Of a DNA stretch of 64,000 nt, positions 54,691-63,324 are shown piece after piece. This DNA comes from a virus. Made by a program: the position numbers and the translations under genes. Position 1 is the first letter of the stretch. Each line of letters starts with the position of its first letter. The stretch lies in the IMG/VR virus record IMGVR_UViG_3300020437_000003, positions 1 to 64,000 of that record. One strand, written 5' to 3'. The notes under the pieces are model-generated. The model had not been told where the DNA came from. It did not search any database and saw nothing but the letters and a program-made list of their open reading frames with translations.

Positions 54691-55500
54691 ATGTTAATTA
54701 CTGAAACTAGACTAAAAGAAATTATTCGCGAAGAAGTAGAGCTTCGTATTGTTAAGCAAACAATTACCGAAGTTATTGCAGAAATGCAACTTGGCTTGAC
54801 AGAAGAACAAACAATCTTATTGGAAAAAACCGTTCTTGATGCAATTAAAAGTGCCGCTAAGAAAGCTGCCGTACCGATTACTGTTATGGCAGCACTTGCT
54901 TTTGGAGGTCAAATAGCATCAGACGTACAGCAGCTTGATGGTGTTGGGGTAACCCCGGCAGCAGCGGAACAGATTCAGAACGCTCTTGATGCTAGCCAAA
55001 ACATGTCCGCCGCGCGCGCTGACTTCATTCAGAAAGCCATCGATGCCAGCGGCCGCGAAGGTGACATACCCGCAGACTTGGCAAAGGGTGTTGGTGCTGA
55101 CAAGGCAAAAAATATTGCTATGGACCGACTTGAAGCCGAATTTGTTTCAAAAGGTGATGTTGAGAGCACAGGTAAAATGCAACAAACCGCAAGGGGCGGC
55201 GTATATATAACATATGTTCCATATGATAGCCTTCCTGATGGATACAAAGATACTTTTACTCGTGGGGCAGAAAAAGAAGATCTAAAGCAGTATTACCAAA
55301 CAATGGAAATTCAAGCCTTAGCAGATTTAGTTAGAGATTTCAATAAATGGGGTTCCGAAGGGCAAGGTAACTTTTACAATTCAAAATCTACTGGAACCAA
55401 GCTTCTACCTGCATCTTGGTCAATCGCATACAAAGCACTATTAGATAAAACTGCTGAACGTGGTGCCAAGGGTAAGAACACTTTTAAAGAAAATGCTTGA
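54691..55500 (+). CDS. Hypothetical protein with shared N-terminal tag and hydrophobic segment
   Basis: A 269-residue protein. The first 17 residues, LITETRLKEIIREEVE, belong to the tag family also seen at 58817, 60618, 61567 and 62136. It is followed by a helix, a hydrophobic stretch around 58-76 (KAAVPITVMAALAFGGQIA), and a mainly helical, Ala-rich and charged body. The last part is Lys-rich. A membrane insertion or internal-virion role is possible but unproven. The tag contains I-R-E, which fits a T4 prohead-protease site (I-x-E). Confidence 0.6.
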   Translation: MLITETRLKEIIREEVELRIVKQTITEVIAEMQLGLTEEQTILLEKTVLDAIKSAAKKAAVPITVMAALAFGGQIASDVQQLDGVGVTPAAAEQIQNALDASQNMSAARADFIQKAIDASGREGDIPADLAKGVGADKAKNIAMDRLEAEFVSKGDVESTGKMQQTARGGVYITYVPYDSLPDGYKDTFTRGAEKEDLKQYYQTMEIQALADLVRDFNKWGSEGQGNFYNSKSTGTKLLPASWSIAYKALLDKTAERGAKGKNTFKENA

Positions 55501-55545: not shown

Positions 55546-55641
55546 ATGTTTAGTTTTATCATTGATACACTTGTAAAAGCGATCTTCATTTATACCTCAT
55601 GGTATGGTTTCAGTGCTCTCTTTTGGATGATGTTAAACTAG
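55546..55641 (+). CDS. Tiny membrane protein (31 residues) leading the recombination operon
   Basis: ATG 55546 follows a strong GGAGGG site and a promoter. The product is hydrophobic throughout (FIIDTLVKAIFIYTSW, then FSALFWMMLN), enough for one membrane-spanning helix. It ends at TAG 55641, 8 bases before the GTG start of the nuclease-ATPase gene. It may be a real short protein, or a leader whose translation aids the next start. Function unknown. Confidence 0.55.
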   Translation: MFSFIIDTLVKAIFIYTSWYGFSALFWMMLN

Positions 55642-55649
55642 GAGAGTTT

Positions 55650-58600
55650 GTGAGCATTAAAATAGCACACGTCTCTGATATTCATGTGCGAAAACTTAAA
55701 TACCACAAAGAATATCGAGCCGTATTTGAACAGCTTTATGAAAAGCTAAGAGAAGAAAAGCCTGATATTATCGTTAACACCGGTGATACGTTTCATACAA
55801 AGTTAGATTTAAGCCCTGAAGCAATTAGGATGATGAGTGAGTTATTTGTTGGTTTGGCAGATATCGCACCATATCATATGATTCTTGGCAATCACGATAT
55901 GAACCTCAAGAATAGTGGTCGGCTAGATGCTATATCTCCGATTGTTGATTATCTAGAGCACCCAAATATTCACTTTCATAAATACGCATCAGTAGTTGAG
56001 GTTGCACCCGGTATTGACTTGCACGTACTATCAATAGTTGATCCAGAGAATTGGCAAAAAGAACTGCCGGATGATCGAGTTAATATTGCGTTGTACCATG
56101 GTTCCGTCGTAGGTTCAGTGACTGATAGTGGCTGGATGATGACGCACGGTGACATATCACTCGAAGAGCTTGAGAAGTATGATTATGCAATGCTGGGTGA
56201 TATTCACAAGACAGATCAAAAAGTTGACAATGATGGTCGAGCACGATACCCGGGCTCACTTGTGCAACAGAATCATGGCGAGTCAAATGATAAGGGTTAT
56301 CTTATTTGGGATATCCAAGATAAAAATACTTGGACAACAAGGCACGTCTCGCTTACTAACCCAAAGCCATTTATTACTATCGAGCTTACACGCAAGGGAC
56401 GAATGCCAAAGAATATTTCTATTCCGCTTGGTGCTCGTCTCCGTCTCGTTAGCAATAATAATTTACCGCTCGATGCTATGAAGAGAGCAGTTGACGTAGC
56501 AAAGCATCGTTTTAAGCCAGAAACAATATCATTTTTAAATCGTGCATCTGGTGAGCGGGGATCTGTTGAGGCACTAACTGATGGTCTGCAAACTGAAAAT
56601 CTGCGGGATATCAAAGTACAAGAAGAACTAATCGATGAATATTTGGTCGATTACGAAGTAGCAGAAACTACACTTGAGAAAGTTTACGAACTAAATAAGA
56701 AGTATAATAAAATTGTTGAGGACAATGAAGATGTATCGAGAAATATTAACTGGAAACTTGTTGACTTTGAGTTTGACAATCTGTTTAATTACGGGGATGG
56801 TAATAATGTTAGCTTTGAAGAGCTAAGTGGCATTATTGGAATCTTTGGTAAAAACTTTTCTGGTAAGAGTAGTATTATTGATGGTATCCTGTGGACACTA
56901 TTTAATACAACATCCAAGAATGAACGAAAGAACTTGAATGTTATTAACCAGAACAAAGAAGATTGTCGCGGAAAGGTAACAATACAGATTAATGATTTGG
57001 TCTATACAGTCGAACGAAAAGCTAAGAAGTACATCAAAAGGCTGAAAGGTGAAGAGACACTAGAGGCTAAGACGGAGTTGAACTTTGAAGTGTATGACCC
57101 AGTTATGGATGAAACTACATCTTTAAATGGTCTCACAAGAACACTCACCGATGCCAACATACGAAAACAGTTTGGTACACTTGATGACTTTGCAGTTTCA
57201 TCTTTATCATCACAGCACGGTGCTTTGGCATTTATTGATGAAGGTTCAACTCGTCGTAAAGAGATTATAGCTAAGTTTCTTGATCTTGAGTTGTTTGATC
57301 GCAAGTTTAAGTTAGCCAAGGAAGATTCAGTTGATCTTAAGGGCGCTCTCAAGAGACTCGAAAGTAAAAACTATGACGATGAACTTGATGCTGTGAACGC
57401 ATCACTCATCGAAGCTAGACAGCAGATGAGTGAACATAAGTCGGTCTGCACTGCCTTGAAAGAAGCAGTTGTAGAGTTGACTGATGTTAAAAATGAGATT
57501 GAGTCTAAGATTGATTCCATACCTGCTGAAATTATTGACATCTCGGCAGTTAACAAAGAAATTAGATTAAAAGAAAATGAAATAACCAAACACAATCTTG
57601 AGAATGACAAATTTGCTGATACTTTAAAAACAAAACAAGGTGTGTATAAGAAAATTGTAAGTTTTCTCGATGAGTTTGATTTGCAAAAATTTGAAACACA
57701 GCGACAACAAATTAATCAGTATAAAGAACAACTAAAAACTCAGGAGGACAATCTCGACAAATTAATTGAAGAACACAACTATATTTTAAAGAAAGAGAGT
57801 TTGTTGCACGATCATGAATATGATCCTGATTGTAAATATTGTTCTAGTAATGAGTTTGTCAAAGAAGCACAATCAGCCGTTAGCAGAAAAGCTGATGTTG
57901 AATCTCAACAAGCTGACACATTACAAACAATTAATATAATCACGGAAGAAATTAAAAGTCTAAATCCTGCTGATGTAGAAATACAATTTGAACGGTATAA
58001 TAAGATAGAGTCCAACAAACACACCGTATCATCAGAGATTGCTGATTTAAATCTTGAGATTGAAAGAAACAAAAACTCTGTCCTGTCTTTGGAAGATAAG
58101 CTAAAAGAATTACGTACCAAGCGTGACGAGTATGAAGAAAACAAGGAAGCAATTGAAAACCTTGAAGTGTTGGTAACTCAGCTAAACAAGTGTCATTATA
58201 AGATTGAACAAACACAAAAGAAGATTGATACCTGTGATGCTGCCACACTTGAGCTTGTCAAGTCTGTTGGTTCATACGAACAAAAGATTGAAACTATTAA
58301 AGAACAAAAGCAGGAATACCAAGATCTACAGACCGAGTTTGCTGCGTATGACCTGTTTATGCAATGTATGCACCCAAATGGTATCGCTTACGATGTTATT
58401 AAGAAGAAGATACCAGTAATCAACGAAGAGATTGCGAAGGTGCTTGCTAATATTGTTGACTTTGAAGTATTCTTTGAAGCTGCAGGTAATAAGTTTGATA
58501 TCAATATCAAGCATCCAAAGTATGAAGAGCGACCCATTGAAATGGCATCTGGCGCTGAAAAATCACTGTCAGCAATGGCTATCCGCTTAGCATTGTTGGG

Positions 58601-58817
58601 AGTTTCATCTCTGCCAAAGTCAGACTTATTTATCCTTGATGAGCCGGGTACAGCATTGGACGAAGACAATATGTCGGGTTTTATTCAGATTTTGGAACTA
58701 ATTAAGGTATATTTCAAGAATGTTTTGTTAATCTCGCACCTTGATTCGCTCAAAGATTGTGTTGATATGCAAATCGTGATTGATAAAAAAGCAGGATATG
58801 CAAAGGTTAACCAATAA
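55650..58817 (+). CDS. Fused Mre11-Rad50-type nuclease-ATPase (gp47-gp46 in one chain)
   Basis: I start at GTG 55650, after AGGAGAG; an earlier in-frame start at 55599 lies inside the tiny ORF and lacks homology. The 1055-residue chain begins with a Mre11/SbcD/gp47 phosphoesterase: DIH (10-12), GDTF (45-48), GNHD (80-83), and LGDIHKTDQ. After about residue 370 comes a Rad50/SbcC/gp46 half: Walker A GKNFSGKSS (near 400), two coiled-coil arms, the CKYC zinc hook (about 728), GAEKSLSAMAIRLAL (ABC signature, near 966) and FILDEPGT (Walker B, near 992). In T4, gp46 and gp47 are separate and resect DNA ends for recombination-dependent replication. Here one polypeptide carries both; the reading frame is unbroken. 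Confidence 0.92.
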   Translation: MSIKIAHVSDIHVRKLKYHKEYRAVFEQLYEKLREEKPDIIVNTGDTFHTKLDLSPEAIRMMSELFVGLADIAPYHMILGNHDMNLKNSGRLDAISPIVDYLEHPNIHFHKYASVVEVAPGIDLHVLSIVDPENWQKELPDDRVNIALYHGSVVGSVTDSGWMMTHGDISLEELEKYDYAMLGDIHKTDQKVDNDGRARYPGSLVQQNHGESNDKGYLIWDIQDKNTWTTRHVSLTNPKPFITIELTRKGRMPKNISIPLGARLRLVSNNNLPLDAMKRAVDVAKHRFKPETISFLNRASGERGSVEALTDGLQTENLRDIKVQEELIDEYLVDYEVAETTLEKVYELNKKYNKIVEDNEDVSRNINWKLVDFEFDNLFNYGDGNNVSFEELSGIIGIFGKNFSGKSSIIDGILWTLFNTTSKNERKNLNVINQNKEDCRGKVTIQINDLVYTVERKAKKYIKRLKGEETLEAKTELNFEVYDPVMDETTSLNGLTRTLTDANIRKQFGTLDDFAVSSLSSQHGALAFIDEGSTRRKEIIAKFLDLELFDRKFKLAKEDSVDLKGALKRLESKNYDDELDAVNASLIEARQQMSEHKSVCTALKEAVVELTDVKNEIESKIDSIPAEIIDISAVNKEIRLKENEITKHNLENDKFADTLKTKQGVYKKIVSFLDEFDLQKFETQRQQINQYKEQLKTQEDNLDKLIEEHNYILKKESLLHDHEYDPDCKYCSSNEFVKEAQSAVSRKADVESQQADTLQTINIITEEIKSLNPADVEIQFERYNKIESNKHTVSSEIADLNLEIERNKNSVLSLEDKLKELRTKRDEYEENKEAIENLEVLVTQLNKCHYKIEQTQKKIDTCDAATLELVKSVGSYEQKIETIKEQKQEYQDLQTEFAAYDLFMQCMHPNGIAYDVIKKKIPVINEEIAKVLANIVDFEVFFEAAGNKFDINIKHPKYEERPIEMASGAEKSLSAMAIRLALLGVSSLPKSDLFILDEPGTALDEDNMSGFIQILELIKVYFKNVLLISHLDSLKDCVDMQIVIDKKAGYAKVNQ

Positions 58818-59170
58818 TGAAAATGAAAAGGTCAGAACTTAAGCAAGTCATCAAAGAAGAGTTAGAATCAGTTCTAACTGAAAGATTATCTCAGAGAGAA
58901 TTTCGACAAGAAGTTTTTAACTTAGCAAAAGCATTTGATAATCCTGAATATGTAAAAATGGTTTTAAAGCCTCTAAAAAATTTATATTCTAAATTGGATA
59001 TAGGTAATGAGAAAATAAAAAGAAGATATGCTGAAGATGTCATTCGTGCTGCTTTCTCTACATACTCAGATACAGAAGCACAAGACTTGCTATCACAGCT
59101 TACGGCTGATCAACCATACACACGATATGGTGATAAGATGGCTGCAGTAATTAAGGATACATATAAATAA
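58817..59170 (+). CDS. Small hypothetical protein with shared N-terminal tag
   Basis: A 117-residue protein. KMKRSELKQVIKEELESV (2-19) is the shared tag, with I-K-E in the middle. The rest is helical with conserved-looking DNPEYVKMVLKPLKN and SDTEAQDLLSQLT. Starts at the final A of the fused nuclease-ATPase stop codon. Function unknown; it might be packaged in the virion. Confidence 0.65.
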   Translation: MKMKRSELKQVIKEELESVLTERLSQREFRQEVFNLAKAFDNPEYVKMVLKPLKNLYSKLDIGNEKIKRRYAEDVIRAAFSTYSDTEAQDLLSQLTADQPYTRYGDKMAAVIKDTYK

Positions 59171-60306
59171 TGTCTAACAACGATAACAACGAATTTGATT
59201 TTCTGCCTCCCGCGGAACCACCACCCTCCTTTAATCAGGAGAAAGACCACTATCACGAAGAAGTTGATGCTGAGGATTTCGGAATGGTCGAAGATTTTGG
59301 ATTACAGATGGAATACTCTGATGAAGATTTACTCCCAGAAAATACCGCTCCTTCTTCAATTAATGTGGGCTTTGTTGGCGTCGGCGGTGGAGGCAACAAA
59401 ATGGCTAACGCTTTTATTGAGCTTGGCTTTAACAAAACATTGCTTGTTAATACAACAGGCAAAGACATTCCTAAGAATGTTGAAGAGGATCACGTTGTCC
59501 TCATTCCCGATGCCGACGGTATTGGCAAAAATGTAGAATATGGAAAAGAGGTATTAACACAAAATGGAGCGATTGTTGAAGATGCTCTGCGCATCAAACT
59601 TGGTAAAGTTGATTGGTTATTCGTCCTTGCTGGCGGTGGCGGTGGGACCGGTAGTTCTGTCACTGCTCTTCATCCTGTGTTTGAGCGGTACCTTCGCTCT
59701 GTTCAAGCTTCTGGGCAAGTAGTGTATGTCACATCTTGGCCAACAGCACAAGAAAATCTCAACCCCACAATAGCTAGAAATGCTCTCACTCTTGCGAATG
59801 ATGTGTCAAGACATCCACACATCATTCTTGATAACGAACGAGCAACAAGATTACTTCGTGGTAGAATTGGTATGCTGGGTATGTATCCGGTCGCCAACAC
59901 ACAATTTGCAAAGTCATTAGCCCAAGTTTTGAAACTCTCCAATGAGGATTCACCGATCCAGTCTTTTGATAGTAAGGACTTAGAAACTTGTCTGGGCAAT
60001 GACGGTCGTGCCTTCATGGGCTCAACTATGATTAAAGATCCAAATACTGGAAAGCTTGGATCGGTGATCCTCCATAACTGCATGAATCGTTCTGCCTGTC
60101 CTCCACCCAAAGGTAAGGCTGCAGCAGGATCATTGGTGCTGGTTGTATCAGAAGAGATGGTAGCTGACCCAAGAGTTAGCAAAAATATTGAGTCGGCAAT
60201 CGCTTATGTCGGCGGTCGATGTGAGACACTTTTCTCTGGTGTTTATGTCAGAAAAAATGTGCCCGGTTTGATTGCGATACTAAGTATGAATGGATTGGCA
60301 ACATAG
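59170..60306 (+). CDS. FtsZ/tubulin-like GTPase
   Basis: A 378-residue protein with the tubulin/FtsZ core. Its first 62 residues are an acidic, Pro-rich tail. Then NVGFVGVGGGGNK (65-77), the T1 nucleotide loop, TLLVNTTGKDI, and AGGGGGTGSS (154-163), the tubulin signature G-G-G-T-G-S. LDNERATRLL (220-229) resembles the FtsZ P-N-[DE]-R-L-L helix. SFDSKDLE (265-272) aligns with the FtsZ T7 loop N-x-D-F-A-D-V, with Asp at 267 and 270 and Asn replaced by Ser. The T7 Asp residues complete GTP hydrolysis across the filament interface, so it may polymerise and turn over GTP. The C-terminal FtsZ tail that binds FtsA/ZipA is missing; the chain ends soon after the core. Role: see findings. Confidence 0.85.
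   Translation: MSNNDNNEFDFLPPAEPPPSFNQEKDHYHEEVDAEDFGMVEDFGLQMEYSDEDLLPENTAPSSINVGFVGVGGGGNKMANAFIELGFNKTLLVNTTGKDIPKNVEEDHVVLIPDADGIGKNVEYGKEVLTQNGAIVEDALRIKLGKVDWLFVLAGGGGGTGSSVTALHPVFERYLRSVQASGQVVYVTSWPTAQENLNPTIARNALTLANDVSRHPHIILDNERATRLLRGRIGMLGMYPVANTQFAKSLAQVLKLSNEDSPIQSFDSKDLETCLGNDGRAFMGSTMIKDPNTGKLGSVILHNCMNRSACPPPKGKAAAGSLVLVVSEEMVADPRVSKNIESAIAYVGGRCETLFSGVYVRKNVPGLIAILSMNGLAT
60283..60304 (+). repeat. 22-bp near-duplicate, copy 1 (3' end of the GTPase gene)
   Basis: Bases 60283-60304 (agtatgaatggattggcaac and two more bases) recur at 60598-60619 with one mismatch (G to A). Here they encode the last residues of the GTPase (S-M-N-G-L-A-T). Confidence 0.85.
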
Positions 60307-60315
60307 GAGATTATA

Positions 60316-60579
60316 ATGGCTAGACATAAAAACACAAAAAGATTTGATCCTCGTTATTTTATGGAAGAGAAGACAGAGGTTTTAAAAGAATCATTGGTTG
60401 ATGCAATCATTAAGATCATCAAAGACTCTCCCTTTGATGACATGGATAATACAGATCTTCACAATGCGGTTAAGCAACAATTTCCACAGTTAAGCGATGA
60501 TCAGATTGATGCTGCCATGAACAATAAGAAGTTGGATCCTTATTATGATGCGCTTGAAGGTGTCTACTCAAAAAATTGA
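60316..60579 (+). CDS. Small hypothetical protein
   Basis: An 87-residue protein after an AGGAGATTATA ribosome site. Its opening ARHKNTKRFDPRYFMEEKTE is basic, with an F-D-P-R-Y-F motif often seen at the start of marine phage proteins; the rest is helical with an acidic block (SPFDDMDNTDLHNAVKQQ). No family is recognised. It lies between the GTPase and a tagged protein. Confidence 0.62.
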   Translation: MARHKNTKRFDPRYFMEEKTEVLKESLVDAIIKIIKDSPFDDMDNTDLHNAVKQQFPQLSDDQIDAAMNNKKLDPYYDALEGVYSKN

Positions 60580-60597: not shown

Positions 60598-60619
60598 AGT
60601 ATGAATGGATTAGCAACAT
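60598..60619 (+). repeat. 22-bp near-duplicate, copy 2, forming a leader mini-ORF
   Basis: Second copy of the 60283 sequence with one mismatch. It contains ATG 60601 to TGA 60621, encoding M-N-G-L-A-T, exactly the last six residues of the GTPase. The TGA overlaps the ATG of the next gene (ATGA). It looks like a copied 3' end retained as a coupling leader. Confidence 0.8.
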
Positions 60620-62750: not shown

Positions 62751-62948
62751 ATGGTAAAAGCACAAGCATTCTTAGACACTTGGTTAGCTAAGCTTACATC
62801 ACGTAAATTAATGGTTTGGCTGGCAGCAACTGGCTTAACACTAGCAGGACATGTTACTAGCGAAGACTGGGTGATTATTTCAGCAATCTATATCGGGGGC
62901 CAAACCATTATTGATGGCATCTCTAGATTGCGAGGTTACAATGATTAG
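62751..62948 (+). CDS. Putative holin
   Basis: A 65-residue protein with two hydrophobic segments (about 19-33 and 39-56) separated by a short polar turn (HVTSED) and a basic end. This fits a class II-type holin. SRKLMVWL and WVIISAIYIGGQTIIDG resemble the small holin-like proteins found beside spanin genes in marine phages. The 62941 gene, a membrane coiled-coil protein, overlaps its end by 8 bases. Position and topology are the evidence; no strict family motif is visible. Confidence 0.62.
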   Translation: MVKAQAFLDTWLAKLTSRKLMVWLAATGLTLAGHVTSEDWVIISAIYIGGQTIIDGISRLRGYND

Positions 62949-63324
62949 AAAACAAATTTTAGAGTTTGTTATATCACACTGGAAAGAAATACTAATAGTT
63001 GTATTAGCAATCGTAGTTGTCGCTAAGACGAGGTATGACTACAATCTAATGCAGAAAACATATAAGACACAAATAGAATCTGCACAATCACAAATCGAAG
63101 GTCTTAAAGAAATACACAAGCAAGAGATTAAAGAAAAACAATTGCTAATGGAAAGTCATCTTGAATCAATTGCCGAAATAGAAAAAGACTACGAAGATGC
63201 TCTTGATATGATAGATGAACTAAGACAAGATAAAGCTGGCAAATACAAGAATAAGTTTAATAGTGACAGAGAAGAACTAATTAGAGATATAGAATCTAAG
63301 TTTGGTATCGAGTATGTTCCTTAA
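62941..63324 (+). CDS. Putative i-spanin (Rz-like) membrane coiled-coil protein
   Basis: Started at ATG 62941, following GCGAGGT; an in-frame start at 62911 lies inside the holin gene. The 127-residue product has an N-terminal membrane helix (about 16-29, ILIVVLAIVVVA) and then a long charged coiled coil to about residue 110 (AQSQIEGLKEIHKQEIKEKQ). This topology matches inner-membrane spanins. It overlaps the next gene by 11 bases. In Gram-negative hosts spanins fuse the membranes in the last step of lysis. Confidence 0.65.
   Translation: MIRKQILEFVISHWKEILIVVLAIVVVAKTRYDYNLMQKTYKTQIESAQSQIEGLKEIHKQEIKEKQLLMESHLESIAEIEKDYEDALDMIDELRQDKAGKYKNKFNSDREELIRDIESKFGIEYVP

Follow-up and report, generated by a model that had tools for sequence, protein, structure and literature searches.

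The window analysed here, a stretch of 64,000 nucleotides taken from an IMG/VR virus record of 145,971 bases, harbors at positions 59170–60306 of the plus strand an open reading frame (ORF) that starts with ATG, has no internal stop and codes for 378 amino acids. Its product is an intact GTPase of the tubulin/FtsZ superfamily carrying the T1–T7 motifs; the only Pfam match is Tubulin (PF00091), whose 33.5 bits lie just above the cut-off of 33. A chance ORF can be dismissed, since at least 166 homologous stretches occur in viral contigs, the dN/dS ratio is about 0.03 and the predicted fold is confidently of the tubulin type. An acidic and mostly disordered N-terminal tail (residues 1–62; 59170–59355) precedes the core, in which we located, all on the plus strand, the T1 loop GVGGGGN (residues 70–76; 59377–59397), the T4 loop with the tubulin signature AGGGGGTGSS (residues 154–163; 59629–59658), the T5 region P191...E195...N204, of the CetZ/TubZ type (59740–59781), the T6 residues D221-N222-E223, a guanine contact of the CetZ/TubZ/tubulin type (59830–59838), the core helix H7 with its invariant N243 (residues 235–256; 59872–59937), and the T7 loop SFDSKDLE (residues 265–272; 59962–59985). 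The C-terminal domain (60004–60303, plus strand) closes with a strand (residues 367–376) and lacks an H11 helix, a linker and a tail.

Across the three subfamilies described below (identity about 28–60%), T1, T3, and T4 keep their key glycines without exception, and D267 and D270 of T7, which align with D209 and D212 of Escherichia coli FtsZ, are invariant in the 94 aligned sequences of the phage family. A sequence-only reading of this DNA had already pointed to the T1, AGGGGGTGSS and SFDSKDLE motifs, to the retention of both T7 aspartates, to an extra acidic N-terminus of 62 residues and to the loss of the FtsZ C-terminal tail. All these observations hold: the N-terminal tail contains 18 acidic residues and a single basic one, and in the structure model the chain stops two residues past the last strand, without the FtsZ linker or C-terminal peptide. 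A T4 late promoter sequence (TATAAATA) at 59162, just 5' of the start codon, was also considered and found no support, as it occurs in 6 copies on the plus strand versus 13 on the minus strand genome-wide.

An earlier structure model, for which 25 near-identical sequences were aligned, reached a pLDDT of no more than 48.6 and was replaced by an AlphaFold2 model based on 94 aligned sequences (pLDDT 88.3, pTM 0.82), in which most of the core exceeds a pLDDT of 90 and the first 50 residues are low. A Foldseek search with this model retrieved FtsZ, CetZ, and TubZ (E 7.5e-20), and the VIA comparison gave Z scores in the range of 26–32 for TubZ, CetZ, and FtsZ structures, the top ones being TubZ 4ei7 (Z 32.0; 2.4 Å over 310 residues) and CetZ2 (Z 31.9), with the best FtsZ at 28.9. 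The tubulin core anticipated from the sequence is, then, present in a confident model. PhuZ chains were absent among the 50 VIA matches listed, which is not evidence against PhuZ. The best viral structural matches, in BFVD, were A0A6J5RW92 (E 2.7e-21) and A0A8S5UFG9 (E 1.6e-18); both derive from uncultured phages, bear automatic names and share a structure with the window protein yet only 15–18% identity, and no study of them was found.

The same sequence-only reading had judged the protein closer to FtsZ than to the known phage and plasmid tubulins. With the single window sequence as a query, FtsZ did rank first. The profile of the whole family, searched against PDB sequences, scored 96 bits with CetZ (3zid), 82 with TubZ and 68 with FtsZ; hhalign gave 6e-23 for plasmid TubZ (309 columns) and 2.8e-13 for E. 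coli FtsZ (242 columns); and the window protein obtained 46.4 bits with the FtsZ equivalog TIGR00065 versus the 295.2 needed. Moreover, N204 in T5, D221-N222 in T6 and N243 in H7 represent the CetZ/TubZ pattern, whereas FtsZ differs at positions 204 and 221 and has mostly Asp at 243. The D-x-x-D of T7 is no pointer to FtsZ, because it is also present in five of six TubZ sequences, in gp138 of phage G and in both PhuZ sequences tested. In the phylogenetic tree, the phage families fall together with TubZ, PhuZ, and CetZ, and FtsZ lies across a 100/100 branch; the topology test rejected a split uniting the phage proteins with FtsZ only marginally (p-AU 0.043) and did not reject a grouping of the phage proteins with CetZ (p-AU 0.29), the best tree having TubZ/PhuZ nearer. 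Other placements also withstood the test: subfamily III with CetZ, a tree in which just subfamilies I and II join the FtsZ side, and all phage proteins with TubZ/PhuZ. Membership in the tubulin superfamily is upheld by the domain and structure matches, and a special kinship with FtsZ is not supported. We favour a position on the TubZ/CetZ side, which the model, the profiles and the guanine-contact residues fit better than FtsZ, the tree leaning weakly in the same direction.

TubZ, known from type III plasmid partition, phage G (gp138) and phage c-st, shares with the window protein the fold (4ei7), a K/R after T3, the P..E..N of T5, the DN of T6, the N of H7 and the D-x-x-D of T7. This likeness, with TubZ as the nearest solved fold and a strong hhalign match to the plasmid proteins, is what one would expect if the gene belonged to a TubZRC-like partition system by which the phage genome persists as an episome of low copy number (pseudolysogeny). 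Such a role appears improbable to us: TubZ has a TubR neighbour, centromere repeats and a C-terminal helix and tail, all absent here, and the phage protein has a long acidic N-tail instead. No upstream gene that might code for a TubR-like partner is conserved in subfamily I, and subfamilies II and III have different ones; a 117-aa upstream ORF was rejected as a candidate, as it occurs in only one other locus. No iterated repeat family resembling centromere iterons was found in the window between 58000 and 61600, the model ends in a strand in place of helix H11 and the tail of TubZ, and the gene content of the phage is T4-type.

The archaeal CetZ proteins provide the best PDB profile match and a nearly identical structural score, and they share the T5/T6/H7 residues; they differ from the phage protein in lacking the acidic N-tail, in the T1 loops of two of the three phage subfamilies and, in three of four CetZ sequences, in having Glu at the position of the phage D270. 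FtsZ has in common with the phage protein the fold, the T1, T4, and T7 motifs and a C-terminus without the H11 helix; its linker and C-terminal peptide are absent here, the T5/T6/H7 residues differ and identity over the core is about 20%. PhuZ, from the phiKZ-type jumbo phages, is likewise a phage-encoded tubulin with the T7 D-x-x-D, but P191, E195, and N222, kept in the window family, are not found in PhuZ sequences. At E ≤ 0.01 the window protein matched only phrog_17961, and not the PhuZ family phrog_4733, which was matched weakly by two other loci (L197 and L208). The defining features examined for FtsZ (equivalog and C-terminal peptide), for TubZ (partner, iterons, and C-terminal helix) and for PhuZ (family match) are all lacking in this protein.

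The relatives retrieved from IMG/VR can be divided into three subfamilies: subfamily I, the window type, with at least 166 related stretches whose compared members are at least 86% identical; subfamily II, with 85 stretches on contigs of up to 293 kb and 47–62% identity to subfamily I; and subfamily III, with 89 stretches and about 30% identity to the other two. One subfamily I tubulin (L058:8001-9140) is sharply divergent over its C-terminal ~85 residues and normal elsewhere, and is likely a recombinant. Among the 50,697 GenBank phages searched, the sole match was the TubZ-like gp138 of phage G (24% identity), which itself matches plasmid TubZ proteins and, used as a query, retrieved only one further relative from viral contigs. 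No match to the window protein was found in plasmids, and no relatives in the cellular genomes searched for the subfamily I motifs. The lineage is already deposited, as shown by the BFVD entries with their automatic names (FtsZ, cell division protein), yet we found no description of it in the open-access literature.

The terminase of the window phage shares 47% identity with that of Flavobacterium phage immuto and 44% with that of Microcystis phage Mel-JY01; its major capsid protein has the same relatives and matches gp23. These data indicate a distant member of the T4 superfamily. Neither the cultured relatives immuto, Mel-JY01, and RM378 nor two huge phages yielded a tubulin with Pfam at cut-off or with the family profile, so related virions can assemble without one. 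When loci were sampled by their terminase (at least 84% identical to that of the window phage) rather than by the tubulin, the tubulin gene was present in every one of the 20 loci whose upstream flank reached 6 kb or more, and in 27 of the 29 with 5 kb or more. Each of 12 large records tested carries a single tubulin copy and a gp23 gene, and none of them gave a match to chimallin in a single-sequence search of records that are possibly partial; the same searches on phiKZ and 201phi2-1 found chimallin and no gp23, so that these PhuZ phages appear to present the reverse of the window-type phages. The tubulin thus appears to be a standing, core gene of a large group of uncultured marine T4-superfamily phages. 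Reading the phage genome by eye, we also noted genes that look like GroES (108202–108471), PurA (116534–117520), IMPDH/GMP reductase (122029–123087), and GroEL (127216–128802), the last found by search as well; an attempt to infer the host from GroEL was uninformative, with best matches of about 43%, few loci and a pattern-limited search.

Upstream of the tubulin gene in most subfamily I loci lies an SbcD-SbcC fusion gene (55599–58817 in the window, plus strand). Downstream, on the same strand, are a holin-like ORF of 65 aa (62751–62948), a conserved neighbour of the tubulin in subfamilies I and III, and an Rz/spanin-like ORF (62911–63324), which lies within about 2 kb of the tubulin in each of the 32 subfamily I loci compared. 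Both were named from the look of their sequences; the cluster of the holin-like ORF has no family match. Subfamilies I and III have a common gene order around SbcCD and the holin-like ORF (tubulin, c1, c2, terminase, portal), and the subfamily III terminases are 55–62% identical to that of the window phage. In subfamily III, moreover, the tubulin gene lies at most 13 nt from a membrane-protein gene (c8) and adjoins c10. Several small ORFs of the window (at 54691, 58817, 60618, 61537, and 62136) begin with a motif like M-K-I-T-x3-L-K-x-I-I-x-E-E-L, and similar starts recur among neighbours in subfamilies I and III; they are possibly a capsid-targeting or protease signal.

This arrangement raises the question of a lysis-linked role, in which the tubulin would localise or time the adjacent holin/spanin-like proteins at the envelope. 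The constancy of the Rz-like ORF and the closeness to c8 and c10 speak for it, but such neighbours are missing from subfamily II, and family searches with the lysis-like ORFs found no match to a lysis family; we consider this role rather unlikely. Among 64 subfamily II loci, a gp23 capsid gene lies near the tubulin in 16 and a head-tail adaptor gene in 19, the common settings being gp23, tubulin, and head-tail adaptor, or a PrkA-like kinase (11 loci), tubulin, and PhoH (21 loci). Since other subfamily II loci adjoin the PrkA-like kinase or PhoH instead, the virion- and lysis-like neighbourhood may mirror nothing but the clustering of late genes. The PrkA-like serine kinase and a PIN-PhoH gene flank the tubulin in L332, L336, L339, L357, and L363, among other subfamily II phages.

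The gene company bears also on the proposal, made from the sequence alone, that the protein could poison host division by co-assembling with FtsZ; a capping of the host filaments would likewise halt the division of infected cells. Small proteins of other phages are known to block FtsZ, and the T7 aspartates and the T4 face are both kept. No positive evidence for poisoning emerged, however, and identity to FtsZ of about 20% over the core, together with the virion/lysis gene neighbourhood, makes co-assembly less likely. Moreover, the guanine residues are of the CetZ/TubZ type, an apparently complete and self-sufficient GTPase cycle is conserved over deep divergence, and the neighbours are structural and lysis-like rather than early takeover genes. 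Of all the roles weighed here, we regard this one as the least probable.

The acidic character of the N-tail is common to all three subfamilies, and subfamilies I and II share within it the motif D-F-x-F/M-V-E, followed by an acidic stretch and LLPEN. Such a tail is nearly absent from the CetZ, TubZ, and PhuZ proteins of the comparison set; the FtsZ proteins have one that is either short or mixed in charge. In subfamily I, the tail has a dN/dS of 0.03 and the core one of 0.036; these values are rough, because dS approaches saturation and the saturated pairs were lost from the estimate. Both parts are under strong purifying selection, and the tail is conserved to the same degree as the core. 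The subfamily III tubulins (L243–L322) begin with MVDIPTLDIEDYDP, which faintly resembles the DIP found in the C-terminal peptide of FtsZ, although it is acidic; this may be chance.

According to these data, we picture a phage tubulin of the TubZ/CetZ side that a group of marine T4-superfamily phages appears to keep as a core gene. Late in infection it would form GTP-dependent protofilaments, and these may bring capsids, replicated DNA or the packaging machinery into position. The acidic N-tail would dock a cargo, or else a partner in the membrane, and so take on the part that a C-terminal tail plays in FtsZ and TubZ. A late filament that puts DNA, capsids or the packaging site in place and uses its N-tail for docking is to our mind the most likely function, and we give it about an even chance; filaments of the protein's own that position the genome or capsids had also been proposed from the sequence alone. 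As polymerisation, late timing and cargo are all things that we infer, the protein might alternatively be a GTPase that forms no filaments and instead works as a switch, helps assembly as a chaperone or forms part of the virion, in line with the capsid and adaptor genes that adjoin it in part of subfamily II. In FtsZ and tubulins, the T7 Asp pair completes the GTPase site of the next subunit, and the invariance of D267 and D270 is what is expected of a polymerising protein; a GTPase without filaments seems to us about as doubtful as the lysis-linked role.

The phage tubulins described so far are of two kinds, TubZ and PhuZ (PMC7950403, PMC7824862). The lineage reported here is distinct from both; several hundred viral contigs, at the least, carry it, and it is linked to virion genes of the T4 type. 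With somewhat less than even confidence, we suggest that it might represent a third class of phage tubulin: a core protein of marine T4-superfamily phages in which no nucleus is known, whose recruitment tail would sit at the N-terminus and whose late filaments would organise capsids or packaging. If so, cytoskeletal organisation would be common in T4-type ocean phages, beyond the nucleus-forming jumbo phages or plasmid-like prophages. Should the filaments form, the way in which infection by T4-type ocean phages is organised in space would become testable, with the N-tail as a direct handle on the cargo.

Lastly, 22 nt at the 3' end of the tubulin gene (60283–60304) recur with 95% identity at 60598–60619, just before the ORF at 60618. 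The two copies flank an ORF of 87 aa (60316–60579), as if a small insertion had duplicated the end of the gene.
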